From NCBI GenBank assembly GCA_029776255.1, contig JAKOTN010000064.1, positions 1 to 64,000 on the forward strand: a stretch of DNA of 64,000 nucleotides, in the 5' to 3' direction. This document shows positions 37,672-43,282 of the stretch, in pieces. The notes under the pieces are model-generated. The model saw nothing but the letters and a program-made list of their open reading frames with translations, made no database searches and was not told the DNA's origin. Within the stretch, counting starts at the first letter, position 1. Every line of letters begins with the position of its first letter. The stretch comes from Pseudomonadota bacterium (GTDB lineage: Bacteria > Pseudomonadota > Gammaproteobacteria > Burkholderiales > Rhodocyclaceae). A program made the position numbers and the translations under genes.

Positions 37672-38451
37672 CTACGATCGGGCCGTCATGGCGCGTTGCA
37701 GAATGGCGGTGACCTGACGCAGTTCGTCGATCGGCACTTGTCCCGGCGCGGAGGCGCGTTCGCCGGCGGCGAAAGTCAGCGCCGAACCGAACGCGCCGCC
37801 GAACAGGCGGCTGGGCACGCCCTGGGCGCCCATCGCGATGCCGATCACAGGCAGCGGGAGCCGCCGGTCGGCGTCGAGGGTGGCGTCGAGCAGGGTCAGC
37901 ACGTCGTCCATCGTTCGCGGCATGACGGCGATCTTGGCGAGATCGGCGCCGGCCTCCGCCATGGCCGCGAAGGTGGCGACCAGTTCGGCTTTCGACGGCG
38001 TTTTCCGGAAGTCGTGGAAGGAGGCGAGCAGTTGGACCCCGACGCGGTGCGCGGCTTGCCGGACGGCCTGGAAATGCGCCGGATCGCTGCGCAGTTCGTA
38101 ATCGATGAAATCGACGCCGTGGCTGGCGCACACCGCGTCGTAGAGCGCGGGAATTCGCTCTTCGGCCAAACCGGTGGCCTCGCCGCCCTCGCGTTCGGAA
38201 CGGCGGGTAAACAGCAGCGGCAGGCCGCCGGCGTGCCGGCGGATGTCCCGGGCCATGGCGACGACGCGGGGGATGTCGCCGATGCCGGCGAAGAAGTCGA
38301 CGCGCCATTCGATCAGGTCGGGCTGCTTTTCGCGCACCGCCGCCAGTTCGCGCAGCAGCGACGGTTCGTCGCGGGCGGTCAGCGAGGTGCAGATCAGCGG
38401 TGTCTTGCCGCCGGCGAGCGCCTTGCCGCCGACGTCGATGGTCTTGCTCAT
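37672..38451 (-). CDS. aroD: 3-dehydroquinate dehydratase, type I
   Basis: A 259-residue class I DHQase. Catalytic points are all visible: the substrate-binding Glu in FIDYELRSDP, the general-base His in LLASFHDFRKTP, the Schiff-base Lys in ADLAKIAVMPRT, and the C-terminal Ser/Gln loop near RASAPGQVPIDEL. It interconverts 3-dehydroquinate and 3-dehydroshikimate. Many betaproteobacteria use the unrelated type II enzyme (AroQ) for biosynthesis, so a type I enzyme here may serve a catabolic or dedicated route (inference). The AbfD/HpaB-like gene lies 46 bp upstream on the same strand, suggesting one operon. Confidence 0.93.
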   Translation of the reverse strand: MSKTIDVGGKALAGGKTPLICTSLTARDEPSLLRELAAVREKQPDLIEWRVDFFAGIGDIPRVVAMARDIRRHAGGLPLLFTRRSEREGGEATGLAEERIPALYDAVCASHGVDFIDYELRSDPAHFQAVRQAAHRVGVQLLASFHDFRKTPSKAELVATFAAMAEAGADLAKIAVMPRTMDDVLTLLDATLDADRRLPLPVIGIAMGAQGVPSRLFGGAFGSALTFAAGERASAPGQVPIDELRQVTAILQRAMTARS

Positions 38452-38497
38452 GCCGTGGGTCCTTGAAAAATCGTGGCTGGCGTTCCCGGCACCGCGC

Positions 38498-40099
38498 TCA
38501 ATCGCCCTTGGCGTTCGGCAAGGGCACCATGATCGCTGTTCCGGGCGCGGCGCAGCCGGCGTCGCAGCAGCGTCCCGGTTGCCGGTTGCGGGCGATTGAA
38601 CGCTGTTCGTCGTGCAGCACGCCGCGGTCGAGCAGCCGTTCGACCAGTTCGACCTTGCTGCCGACGGGGTAGTGACGCCAGATTTCCTGTTTCATCGCCG
38701 CCGGCGAACCGCCGCCGTGCAGGCTGATCACCGAATACCAGCCGCCCTGGTACGAGGCGGTGAGATCTTCGATGAAGCGGGCGACTTCGATACGCTTGTC
38801 GTACGGCACGGCCGGATTGGCGCGCAGCACATCGGCGAGGGTGGCGGCGGTGGCCGGATTATGGTCTTCGTCGGGACCGGGCAGGGCGACGATCAACCCG
38901 CCGGAAACCTCGTGCGCCAGGCGGTGCATGTCGTAAATCTGGGTTGCCAGCAGCAGTTTGCCGATGTTGGCGAACACCGGTTCGGGCATGAAACCGCCGC
39001 TGTGCGGGTCGGCGGTGCCGTAAACGCTGGCGGCGACGCCGCAGGCGAAGAAGCCTTCGGTGATCTTGATCAGTTCGACCATCGGTTCGCGCAGACTGGC
39101 CTTGCGGCCGGGGTCGAAACCGTTGGCTTCGCACATCAGGGCGCCGGCGCCGATCAGCAGGTCGCCGAAACCGGCGCGGGCGGCGATGCAACTGTGTCGG
39201 TGATGGGTGGCGTAGGCGTGGGTCAGGGCGCCGGAATGTTCCCACTCGCCGGCGTAGAACACGCGCTCCCAGGGGACGAAAACCCGGTCGAAAACGACCA
39301 CGCCGGTCGATTGGCCGTAGCGCCGCGAAAAGAGCGGCGCGCCGTGTTCGGGTTTTTCGCCGGGACGCCCCGCCGGGCGGGCGACGATGGTCACGCCGGC
39401 GGCGTCGACCGGCACGGCGCAGCAGACGGCGAAATCGGCGTCCTCGGCGCTCATCCGCCGGCTGGGCATGACCAGGAACTGGTGTACGTACGGCGCGCCG
39501 GTGACGATGGCCTTGGTGCCCGAGATGACGATTCCCGCCGCCCGCCGCTCGACGATGCGCAGATAGGCGTCGGGATTCGGCTGCCGGTGCGGGCGCAGCG
39601 AGCGGTCGCCCTTGGCGTCGGTCATGGCGATGCCCAGCGCCAGGTCGCGGTCCTGCACGTCGGCGAGATAGGCGGCGAAACGGGCGCGGTGTTCGCCGCC
39701 GCCGCGTGCGTCGTCGATGCGCGCGCTGACCTGGTGGATGGCGTTCAGGGCGTCGTGCGCCAGATAGCGTTGCGCGCAGCCGGTCTCCTGGCAGAGCAGG
39801 CGCACCGCTTCGAGCTTGTTGAGCAGATCGCCCGCCGATTCGTTGATGTGCAGCATGCGATTGACCGTGACGCCGCGCATGGTCTGCGTCGCGGTCATCA
39901 GCGGCGCCTTTGCCGGGTCGAGGGCGAAATCGTAGGTCACCGCCAGGGCGTTGATTCCCGGTTGCAGGGATGGCGCGTCGGCGACCGAGTCAATCAAGTG
40001 GCCGTCGACGTACACCGTCGGGCGCTGCCGGCGCAACGACTCGCGGTACTCGGCGCCGCTGATCGGCCGGGATGTCGGGGAGGGAATGGATGCCGTCAT
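38498..40099 (-). CDS. 4-hydroxybutyryl-CoA dehydratase/HpaB-superfamily protein with altered Fe-S ligands
   Basis: A 533-residue flavoprotein of the acyl-CoA-dehydrogenase-like superfamily that joins AbfD (4-hydroxybutyryl-CoA dehydratase) and HpaB (4-hydroxyphenylacetate 3-monooxygenase). Collinear blocks are GAEYRESLRRQRPTVYVDG, AMTDAKGDRSLRP, VVVFDRVFVPWERVF, and GFGDLLIGAGALMCEANG. AbfD holds a [4Fe-4S] cluster through three Cys and one His. Here the equivalent positions read Cys108, Tyr112, His300 and Ala307, so two of the ligands are gone; Cys103 and Cys304 are nearby extras. A C-terminal tail carries CCDAGC. The ATG at 40099 has AGGA 5 nt upstream. It precedes aroD; no HpaC flavin reductase is near. 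The reaction is unknown. Confidence 0.8.
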   Translation of the reverse strand: MTASIPSPTSRPISGAEYRESLRRQRPTVYVDGHLIDSVADAPSLQPGINALAVTYDFALDPAKAPLMTATQTMRGVTVNRMLHINESAGDLLNKLEAVRLLCQETGCAQRYLAHDALNAIHQVSARIDDARGGGEHRARFAAYLADVQDRDLALGIAMTDAKGDRSLRPHRQPNPDAYLRIVERRAAGIVISGTKAIVTGAPYVHQFLVMPSRRMSAEDADFAVCCAVPVDAAGVTIVARPAGRPGEKPEHGAPLFSRRYGQSTGVVVFDRVFVPWERVFYAGEWEHSGALTHAYATHHRHSCIAARAGFGDLLIGAGALMCEANGFDPGRKASLREPMVELIKITEGFFACGVAASVYGTADPHSGGFMPEPVFANIGKLLLATQIYDMHRLAHEVSGGLIVALPGPDEDHNPATAATLADVLRANPAVPYDKRIEVARFIEDLTASYQGGWYSVISLHGGGSPAAMKQEIWRHYPVGSKVELVERLLDRGVLHDEQRSIARNRQPGRCCDAGCAAPGTAIMVPLPNAKGD

Positions 40100-40285
40100 G
40101 TTGTTCCTGATCGTCGCGCGCTCGCGGCTCGGGTACGAAACGGCGCGGCGCATGGCCGGCAAGCTTGAAAGCGGCGCCGGGAGAAGTCAAGCCGGCGGCG
40201 CGCCGCCGGGGTGGGCAGGGAAGGGTCGGGTGGGGCCGGAAGAAACCGACGCTTCCGAGAAGTCGAGGGGGCGCCGGTTTTTATC

Positions 40286-42127
40286 CTAGCCCTCGCGCGC
40301 AGCGCGGCGGCGCTCGTTGTCGGTCAGCAGGCGCTTGCGCAGGCGGATGGTTTTCGGAGTGATTTCGACCAGTTCGTCGTCGTCGATGAATTCGACCGCC
40401 GATTCGAGGGTCAGCGCGACGGCCGGCACCAGCCGCACCGCTTCGTCGGAGCCGGAGGCGCGGATGTTGGTCAATTGCTTGCCTTTGATCGGGTTGACCA
40501 CCAGGTCGTTTTCGCGGCTGTGGATGCCGATGATCATTCCTTCGTACAGCCGGTCGCCGGGGACGGAGAACATCCGCCCGCGGTCCTGCAATTTCCACAG
40601 CGAATAGGCGACCGCTTCGCCCTTTTCGCCGGAAATCAGCACGCCGTTCCGGCGGCCGGGGATGTCGCCCTTGACCGGCGCGTACTCGTCGAAAACGTGG
40701 CTCATCAGGCCGGTGCCGCGCGTCATGTTCAGGAATTCGCCCTGGAAGCCGATCAGGCCACGGGCCGGGATGCGGTATTCCAGACGCACGCGGCCGCGAC
40801 CGTCGGGAGACATGTCCTGCAAGTCGCCCTTGCGGTAGCCGAGGGCTTCCATGACCGCGCCTTGATGCGTTTCTTCGACATCGATGGTGAGCATCTCGTA
40901 CGGTTCGCAGGTTTCGCCGTCGATTTCCTTGTAGATGACTTTCGGCCGGCCGACGGCCAGCTCGTAGCCTTCGCGGCGCATGGTTTCGAGCAGGATGGTC
41001 AGGTGCAGTTCGCCGCGCCCGGAGACCAGGAAGCTGTCGGTGTCGCTCGTTTCCTCGACGCGCAGCGCCATGTTGGTCAACAGTTCCTTGCGCAGGCGCT
41101 CGCCGATCTGGCGGCTGGTGACGAATTTGCCTTCCGTGCCGGCGTAAGGCGAGTTGTTGACCATGAAGGTCATGTTCAGCGTCGGTTCGTCGATGTGCAG
41201 CATCGGCAGCGCTTCCGGCTTGTCCGGGTCGGTGATCGTGCAGCCGATCGACAGATCCTCGATGCCGGTGACCAGGACGATGTCGCCGGCCAGCGCTTCT
41301 TCGAGGGCGATCCGCTCCATGCCGCGAAAGCCGAACACCTGCCCGACCTTGGCGTTTTTCGGCGCGCCGTGCGCGTATTTGCCGTCGGCGTCGGCCTGAC
41401 CGTACATCACCACGACCTGTTGCGCGGGTTTCAGGCGGCCGCGCTGGACGCGGCCGATGCCGATGCGTCCAACGTAGCTGGAGTAGTCGAGAGCGGAAAT
41501 CTGCATTTGCAGCGGGCCGTCGATTTCGTCGGCGTGCGGCGGCGAAACGCTTTCGAGAATGGTTTCGAACATCGGCCGCATGTCGGTCGACGGTTTCGCC
41601 AGGTCGCGGGTGGCGTAGCCGTTGATCGCCGAGGCGTAAAGCACCGGGAAATCGAGCTGTTCGTCGGTGGCGCCGAGTTTGTCGAACAGGTCGAAGGTGT
41701 GATCGACCACCCAGTCCGGCCGGGCGCCGTCGCGGTCGATCTTGTTGACCACCACGATCGGCTTCAGGCCCAGCGCCAGCGCTTTTTTGGTGACGAAACG
41801 CGTCTGCGGCATCGGGCCTTCGACGGCATCGACCAGCAGCAGCACGCCATCGACCATCGACAGCACGCGTTCGACTTCGCCACCGAAGTCGGCGTGCCCG
41901 GGCGTGTCGACGATGTTGATGTGAATCCCCATGTAGTCGACGGCCAGATTCTTGGCCAGAATGGTGATGCCCCGTTCTTTTTCGAGGTCATTCGAATCCA
42001 TCATCCGCTCGCCGATGTGCTGGTGAGCGGAGAAGCTGCCGGCCTGGACCAGGAGCTTGTCGACCAGGGTGGTCTTGCCATGGTCGACGTGGGCGATGAT
42101 GGCGATGTTGCGGACGGCGCGGGACAT
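40286..42127 (-). CDS. typA: Ribosome-associated translational GTPase BipA/TypA
   Basis: A 613-residue TypA/BipA. The G domain has G1 [10 protein letters not shown], the G2 region ERGITI, G3 [13 protein letters not shown]4 [14 protein letters not shown] and G5 YASAINGYA. Domains II, III and V follow, with the characteristic C-terminal [32 protein letters not shown] and [20 protein letters not shown]. It is an EF-G-like GTPase that binds the 70S ribosome under stress and helps 50S assembly. The upstream gap to the truncated haemoglobin gene is 93 bp on the same strand. Confidence 0.97.
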
Positions 42128-42220: not shown

Positions 42221-42607
42221 TCAGGTCGGCTGATTGCGCATGAAATCGGCGGTATTGAAGAACGAGGCGAGCAGTTTTTCGCGCATGGCGGGTTCCATGC
42301 CCACCGCTTCCATCGCCAGATACATGCAGGCCACCCACTGGTCGCGCTCCTCGGTGCCGATGGCGAAGGGCAGGTGCCGGCGGCGCAGCATCGGATGACC
42401 GATGTGCTGGACGTAGAGATCCGGTCCGCCCAGCCAGCCGGATAGAAACATGAACAGCTTGTCGCGCGAGATTTTCAGATCGGTCGGGTGCATCGCCCGT
42501 ATGGTCTGGAATTGCGGTGTGTCGTCCATCAGTTCATAGAAACGGTCGCAAAGCGCGGCGACGGTGCTTTCGCCGCCGATCAACTGGTAAGGGGTCTGTT
42601 CCTGCAT
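42221..42607 (-). CDS. Truncated haemoglobin, group II
   Basis: A 128-residue 2/2 haemoglobin. B10 Tyr lies in DRFYELM (about residue 25). GHPMLRRRHLPFAIG contains the proximal His78 in the same context as mycobacterial trHbO, and the group II Trp at G8 is Trp91 (RDQWVACM). It binds haem and oxygen or NO; protective or electron-transfer roles are usual. The ATG at 42607 begins family sequence, though its ribosome-binding site is weak, and the frame opens earlier. It is divergent from the phasin gene, and the 216-bp gap holds the phasin promoter and two palindromic operators that could affect both. Confidence 0.92.
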   Translation of the reverse strand: MQEQTPYQLIGGESTVAALCDRFYELMDDTPQFQTIRAMHPTDLKISRDKLFMFLSGWLGGPDLYVQHIGHPMLRRRHLPFAIGTEERDQWVACMYLAMEAVGMEPAMREKLLASFFNTADFMRNQPT

Positions 42608-42688
42608 GCGGAAGGGTGGCTCGAGTCGAAAGATATTGATTTTACGTCTGGAAGGCGTCGCTGTCCGCGATCCTCGGTGATCTGTTTC

Positions 42689-42761
42689 TGTTGCGTTGCA
42701 ACAAAACGGTTGACAAGCGCCGTTAGGCAGATAGAATGGCTTCGCATGCTGCGGTGCAGCA
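42689..42761. promoter_or_regulatory. Two PhaR-type palindromic operators flanking the phasin promoter
   Basis: TGTTGCGTTGCAACA (42689-42703) and TGCTGCGGTGCAGCA (42747-42761) are perfect 15-bp palindromes of the form TGYTGC-N3-GCARCA. The second contains CTGC-N3-GCAG, the site described for the PHA regulator PhaR. They bracket the -35/-10 pair of the phasin gene, with centres 58 bp apart, as expected for repression that is lifted when PHA granules titrate PhaR. No phaR gene is in this window. Confidence 0.75.
42710..42737 (+). promoter_or_regulatory. Sigma-70 promoter of the phasin gene
   Basis: TTGACA at 42710-42715 and TAGAAT at 42732-42737 are separated by 16 nt: a full -35 match and 5 of 6 at -10. 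It lies 87 bp upstream of the phasin ATG, between two palindromic operators. Confidence 0.75.
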
Positions 42762-42823
42762 ATCGTTCTGTTGCCGCATGGCGGGGCCCGCCTTTTGTGT
42801 TCGGTCGATCCTGGGAGAATGGA

Positions 42824-43282
42824 ATGCGCAACGTAACGGAAAAATTCGCCGGTGCCAGAGAGCTTGGCCTGGAAACCTTCACGACGATGATGAATGCCTC
42901 TCTCGACGGCATCAGTCAACTGGCGGCTCTCAATCTCCAGACGGCGCGCGCCTTTGTCAAAAGCGGTGCGGAAAATATCAAGGCGCTGTCGGCCGTTCGC
43001 GATGTTCACGATTTGACGGCCTTGCAGCAGCCGGCGATGGCGTTGGCCGTCGAGAATTCGTTGGTTTACTCACGGCGCGCCTACGAAATTTGCAGCGAAT
43101 CGTCGAATGCGCTGGTGCGAGTCTTTGAGGGGCAAGTAAGCGAAATCGGCGGTGGTGTGGCCTCGCTGTTCGAGCAGAGTCGTCAGAACACACCGCCGCT
43201 GTTCGCCCCGGTGTTCGATATCGTGGCCGATGTCGCTAAATCGGCGCTGGCGGCGGTCCAGGCGGGTCCGCGGCTCGTTTGA
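42824..43282 (+). CDS. phaP: Phasin, PHA-granule-associated protein
   Basis: A 152-residue amphipathic, helical protein of the phasin_2 type. It has REREL-like ARELGLETFTTMMNASLDGISQLAALNLQTARAFVKSGAENIKALSAVRDVHDL followed by AVENSLVYSRRAYEICSESSNALVRVFEGQVSE, the usual coat-forming helices. It binds the surface of polyhydroxyalkanoate granules and controls their number and size. GGGAGA lies 5 nt before the ATG at 42824. A strong promoter and two PhaR-type palindromes precede it, and a terminator follows at 43378, so it is a monocistronic regulated gene. Confidence 0.92.
   Translation: MRNVTEKFAGARELGLETFTTMMNASLDGISQLAALNLQTARAFVKSGAENIKALSAVRDVHDLTALQQPAMALAVENSLVYSRRAYEICSESSNALVRVFEGQVSEIGGGVASLFEQSRQNTPPLFAPVFDIVADVAKSALAAVQAGPRLV

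Follow-up and report, generated by a model that had tools for sequence, protein, structure and literature searches.

What kind of reaction can be expected from a relative of 4-hydroxybutyryl-CoA dehydratase (AbfD) in which half of the cluster ligands are missing, and does the aroD gene beside it point to the substrate? Both questions are raised by a gene at 38498..40099 (minus strand) in a 64,000-nucleotide stretch of a Rhodocyclaceae genome (assembly GCA_029776255.1, contig JAKOTN010000064.1, positions 1 to 64,000), here called the window. The intact reading frame encodes a protein of 533 amino acids with the Pfam domains HpaB_N and HpaB. AbfD itself is a ketyl-radical dehydratase with flavin adenine dinucleotide (FAD) and a catalytic [4Fe-4S] cluster, and a singular enzyme. 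For the Clostridium aminobutyricum enzyme we take the cluster ligands to be Cys99, Cys103, His292 and Cys299, and the catalytic residues to be Glu257, Tyr296, Lys300 and Glu455.

A preliminary description of the window had placed the protein in the AbfD/HpaB superfamily, with Cys108, Tyr112, His300 and Ala307 at the four ligand positions, additional cysteines at 103 and 304 and a CCDAGC tail, and the alignments agreed with it. In the MAFFT alignment AbfD Cys99 and His292 were kept as Cys108 (codon 39776..39778; all codons are on the minus strand) and His300 (39200..39202), whereas Cys103 and Cys299 were changed to Tyr112 (39764..39766) and Ala307 (39179..39181). The window protein thus has two of the four ligands of the [4Fe-4S] cluster. 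Each of the catalytic residues was switched as well, Glu257 to Thr265, Tyr296 to Cys304 (39188..39190), Lys300 to Arg308 and Glu455 to Ile458; counted over the eight AbfD residues compared, six were lost. The same mapping was obtained consistently across HMMER, MAFFT and profile-profile alignments. The new Cys103 (39791..39793) stands at the position of Gly93 in AbfD, five residues before Cys108, and Cys304 follows His300 at a distance of four residues. The lost ligands are therefore offset by nearby conserved cysteines, and three Cys and one His are again available. At the C-terminus the CCDAGC motif with Cys511, Cys512 and Cys516 (38552..38569) extends past the end of 1u8v.

Conservation was counted over 98 aligned family rows from at least two classes, in which one species is possibly present twice. 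C108, Y112, C227, T265, H299, H300, C304, A307, R308, I458, C511, C512 and C516 were invariant in 98/98 rows. Cys103 was found in 97/98, the relative at locus L061 being the sole exception, and the whole set named in the preliminary description was conserved in 97-98 of the 98 rows. Eight cysteines were present in at least 97 rows; C226 (92/98) and C323 (89/98) were less conserved.

Among 84,980 species genomes scanned, at least 583 candidates were found. The relatives' loci used here are the 80 best of these, and their proteins were 77-87% identical to the window protein. According to the record titles these 80 were mostly betaproteobacterial, with a few from Gammaproteobacteria, Ectothiorhodospiraceae, Rhodospirillales and Anaerolineae, some of them possibly mis-binned. 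A wide gap in identity set the family apart. In a sample of the phylum, 8/398 genomes had a match of at least 66% and the next best match was 33%; in a sample of the class, 6/369 had one of at least 65%, followed by matches of 34-39%. Six of the latter were checked and all carried the AbfD ligands. All four ligands and the other AbfD residues were likewise found in nine AbfD relatives from the loci (33-37% identity) and in two solved AbfDs.

Two trees were calculated, the first from 48 rows (14 family, 11 AbfD, no named HpaB), the second from 52 rows, to which three annotated hpaB proteins (L149, L151, L152) and one Thermus protein had been added. In both the family and AbfD formed sister clades, each with support of 100/100, and the window protein did not fall inside the AbfD clade. 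The three annotated hpaB proteins lay in the other half of the 52-row tree, beyond a 100/99 branch. The earlier statement that the protein is neither an ordinary AbfD nor grouped with named HpaB proteins was thus borne out. Two proteins, L102 and L138, branched below both clades and were assigned to neither group. As a side observation, L138, from a Rhodococcus opacus plasmid, is annotated as 4-hydroxybutyryl-CoA dehydratase; the cluster ligands of AbfD are missing from it, and it forms a further divergent line outside the AbfD clade.

When the 14 family rows were compared with the 11 AbfD rows, 71 columns were invariant and the same in both, and 30 were invariant but different. Among these 30 are the catalytic positions of AbfD, the column of Cys103 and the stretch around the AbfD RQSCD motif. 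The ratio of nonsynonymous to synonymous substitution rates (dN/dS) of the window gene was 0.12-0.16 against six relatives linked to typA. Of four further relatives, three gave 0.17-0.24 and one was saturated; judged by these ratios the gene is under purifying selection. We concluded that trees and alignments show a discrete and strongly conserved family lacking a name, which within the HpaB/acyl-CoA-dehydrogenase fold is sister to AbfD and appears to be a new clade with a rewritten active site. A literature search, covering titles and the starts of abstracts among the matches listed, returned no description of this family. In PMC8364193 and PMC13101534 AbfD is mentioned as a comparison.

The likeness to AbfD goes beyond the fold and the identity of 33-36% in structural matches, since the MTDxKGDR and HGxGSP motifs and the equivalents of Cys99 and His292 are kept along with the 71 common columns. 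Acyl-CoA dehydrogenases were also present in the Foldseek and VIA-align lists with lower scores, as expected for the fold. The family differs from AbfD in the absence of Cys103, Cys299, Glu257, Tyr296, Lys300 and Glu455, in the presence of Cys103, Cys304 and the CCxxGC tail of its own numbering, and in its surroundings: the gene that recurs beside it encodes a TetR protein, while CoA-transferase genes adjoin two AbfDs (L136, L137).

Recurrent neighbours were identified by all-against-all comparison, and TetR and isochorismatase counts were obtained by tblastn. A divergent TetR gene adjoins the AbfD-sister gene in 55/80 loci, and it was also found beside members from another class (L124-L127) and beside one from another order (L139). 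A palindrome search on 78 of the 80 loci (without L035 and L049) together with the window gave TGAAC-N3-GTTCA in 45/54 upstream regions with TetR and in 0/25 without it, the window being among the 25. Recounted on all 80 loci, the 15-bp palindrome TTGAACANTGTTCAA was present upstream of the gene in 50/55 loci with TetR (for example L077, L054 and L048) and in 0/25 without. In 1.48 Mb of loci, with one mismatch allowed, TTGAACANTGTTCAA occurred at 58 sites, or 55 distinct ones since L091/L130, L095/L132 and L097/L134 are the same genomes twice, and all of them lay at most 350 bp upstream of the AbfD-sister gene. Exactly one site, directly upstream of the gene, was found in 5/9 whole genomes (G005, G033, G004, G438, G079). 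Of the other four, G018 had one site and G447 two, all away from the gene, and none was detected in G374 and in G000, which is the window genome. Neither form of the complete 15-bp palindrome occurred in the paper texts searched. In much of the family a private TetR thus appears, from the upstream sequences, to act on the gene through a single operator.

From these results the protein is most likely, as far as sequence comparison can tell, an inducible stand-alone FAD enzyme that has either a metal cluster in a shifted position or a site with a reactive cysteine. FAD would be held with the help of the MTDxKGDR and HGxGSP motifs, as the fold and their common presence in AbfD suggest. Beside it a cluster or metal site may be held by Cys108, His300 and Cys304 together with either Cys103 or one of the cysteines in the invariant tail; we propose such a relocation because the inventory of ligands is unchanged and the spacing between His300 and Cys304 equals one helical turn. 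Dehydration of 4-hydroxybutyryl-CoA is unlikely, since none of Glu257, Tyr296, Lys300 and Glu455 of AbfD is retained, and the enzyme would instead act on some other small molecule, in a different flavin reaction of a single step. The TetR protein would bind the palindrome and repress the gene. A private TetR with a dedicated palindrome makes a substrate-like compound the probable inducer. The private regulator, the patchy distribution (7/61 genomes of the window's family, 8/398 of the phylum sample) and the lack of a constant enzyme partner together point to catabolism or detoxification in a stand-alone step, with its substrate or product as the likely inducer.

In its general form, an AbfD-sister flavoenzyme that keeps a cluster or metal site by the FAD, catalyses a reaction other than that of AbfD, is induced through TetR in many relatives and is unrelated to aroD, we regard this reading as evenly balanced between right and wrong. 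We hold more tentatively, with somewhat less than even confidence, its specific form, in which the Fe-S cluster of an AbfD-like ancestor was re-coordinated by Cys103, Cys108, His300, Cys304 and possibly the CCxxGC tail, the reaction became a new one of the radical type and the substrate is the inducer of a one-operator TetR switch. If true, the sister clade, with an equal number of Cys and His candidates at shuffled positions, would offer a natural experiment on how a cluster can be moved, and probably a new reaction. The private TetR, with a single palindrome in each of five genomes, provides a practical handle, as its inducer should point to the substrate.

Several observations weigh against a relocated cluster under TetR control. 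The relative at L061 (5851-7491, from a metagenome-assembled genome) has Arg at position 103. C227 (98/98) and C353 (97/98) are conserved as strongly as the proposed ligands, and cysteine conservation by itself is therefore no proof of metal binding. The CCDAGC tail falls in a low-confidence part of the predicted structure, and both trees carry long-branch warnings. TetR is present without the palindrome at L006, L036, L037, L039 and L046, and the TetR-linked genomes G374 and G447, from another class, have no such site at the gene; in these two, TetR shares no more than 44-45% identity with the query TetR, and the operator must differ. The window gene itself has neither TetR nor palindrome (at most two mismatches in the window, at most one in the genome), and the intergenic region at 40100..40285 is without the site that 50/80 relatives have upstream of the gene. 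The upstream neighbour in the window is typA/bipA (40286..42127, minus strand), which lies within 3 kb upstream in 13/80 relatives, 12 of them named Accumulibacter. TetR and palindrome are both missing from these 13 typA-linked loci as well as from the window, and we therefore concluded that the regulation changed in this branch.

The best of the alternatives, which we consider unlikely but to be taken seriously, is a cluster-free flavin monooxygenase of the HpaB type that obtains reduced flavin from a general reductase and uses the Cys and His residues for substrate binding or structure. The FADH2-dependent phenol monooxygenases (2yyg, 6qyh, 3hwc) have the same fold and Pfam domains, one protein with a flavin-reductase domain is encoded on another contig of the window genome, and a gene with PF13557, a domain assigned to a putative MetA pathway for degrading phenol, is found downstream in 8/80 relatives. 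However, identity to these enzymes in structural matches was only 18-24%, and the window protein scored far below the NCBIfam cut-offs for HpaB-1 (121 vs 480.2 bits) and HpaB-2 (93.3 vs 885.2 bits). The position as sister to AbfD, apart from the three named HpaB proteins, and the retention of AbfD Cys99 and His292 also speak against it, and no flavin reductase was found in the ten recurrent neighbour families annotated, which are a subset of the neighbours. Because only the general HpaB domains match, so far below those cut-offs, members of the family are easily misnamed hydroxylases.

Less probable again, and doubtful in our view, is a cluster-free FAD enzyme with cysteine chemistry, a lyase, dehalogenase or thiol-dependent reductase in type, in which Cys304 would be a nucleophile or redox residue and the CCxxGC tail a redox or zinc element. 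The invariant Cys304 exactly replaces the catalytic tyrosine of AbfD and the eight near-invariant cysteines are consistent with such chemistry, as are the old-yellow-enzyme type gene (9/80 loci) or isochorismatase-type hydrolase (31/80) sometimes found nearby, but the retention of AbfD Cys99 and His292 is left unexplained. The isochorismatase linkage is weak evidence because unlinked homologues occur in six genomes. An isochorismatase partner was also considered as a sign of an amide pathway and rejected, as an unlinked homologue (47-56% identity) is encoded in the window genome, G018, G009, G004, G033 and G005; G005 has a linked copy in addition. By eye, the linked hydrolases (L034, L069, L077 and others) show an apparent Asp-Lys-Cys triad, and their nearest solved proteins are 2b34 and 8rl0.

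With the aroD gene (37672..38451, minus strand, 259 amino acids) the preliminary description had connected a further idea, that the enzyme acts on a shikimate- or quinate-derived compound and is functionally tied to this neighbour. The two genes lie on the same strand, 46 bp apart. The aroD product scored above the cut-offs for PF01487 (221.2 vs 22.2 bits) and TIGR01093 (195.4 vs 139.3 bits), and its HDF and AKIAVMP stretches align with the solved enzyme 2yr1, with the His and Lys positions kept that we take to be the catalytic His and the Schiff-base Lys of type I dehydroquinase. It is an ordinary type I 3-dehydroquinate dehydratase, unusual only in taking the place of type II in the window genome. 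The preliminary description had named the lack of a conserved link with aroD as grounds for refuting its idea, and such a lack was the outcome of the neighbourhood survey: no aroD homologue was found in any of the 80 relatives' loci, in 7 of which the downstream sequence was shorter than 1.5 kb.

The survey of 61 genomes of the window's family led to the same result. The AbfD-sister gene was present in 7/61 and co-occurred with type I aroD in one of the 61, the window genome. The same-genus genome G018 has it ~2.2 kb beyond typA, in the same orientation and immediately followed by a PF13557 gene, and encodes a type II dehydroquinase at another place. A tie to aroD is accordingly very improbable, and the proposed shikimate or quinate substrate was not upheld. 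The accompanying claim, that betaproteobacteria usually have the type II enzyme, holds in this family, where type II was found in 56 genomes and type I in 6 (G044 being a partial match); G036 has both. In the window genome the type I enzyme was found once and the search for aroQ elsewhere returned no type II dehydroquinase, so that aroD is probably the only dehydroquinase. Type II was not found in five genomes, G000, G006, G024 and G047, all with type I, and G052 with neither type. As four of these five carry type I aroD, it most likely replaces the housekeeping enzyme. In the window genome aroD thus most likely replaced aroQ and stands beside the AbfD-sister gene by chance, and on the basis of these genome surveys the two genes are most likely functionally unrelated. 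The type-I-only pattern of G000 is also seen in three further genera of this family (G006, G024, G047).

That the gene is a decayed AbfD without function, as the loss of six of the eight residues might suggest, is scarcely credible, since the replacement residues are kept in 97-98 of 98 rows, the reading frame is intact and dN/dS stays at 0.12-0.16 against the nearest relatives compared. The preliminary description had left it open whether the cluster was lost or re-coordinated; given the invariant replacement set and the apparent purifying selection, re-coordination would fit better than decay.

Among the remaining neighbours, msrP, like the old-yellow-enzyme and PF13557 genes, was found in few loci. 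For members from other classes and orders, ten surrounding open reading frames apiece were annotated, and no common theme emerged. Promoter and terminator sites around the AbfD-sister gene and aroD gave none of note, with counts close to those of shuffled sequences. An anti-phage defence role was considered and rejected, as PADLOC gave no match. The members at L140, L141 and L142 belong to a different family of the class. No homologue of the TetR described above was found in the stretch examined around them; EamA transporter and luciferase-like monooxygenase genes are common to all three, downstream. Near typA in the window, an open reading frame at 42488-43282 (plus strand) resembles, by eye, a phasin, the polyhydroxyalkanoate granule protein.
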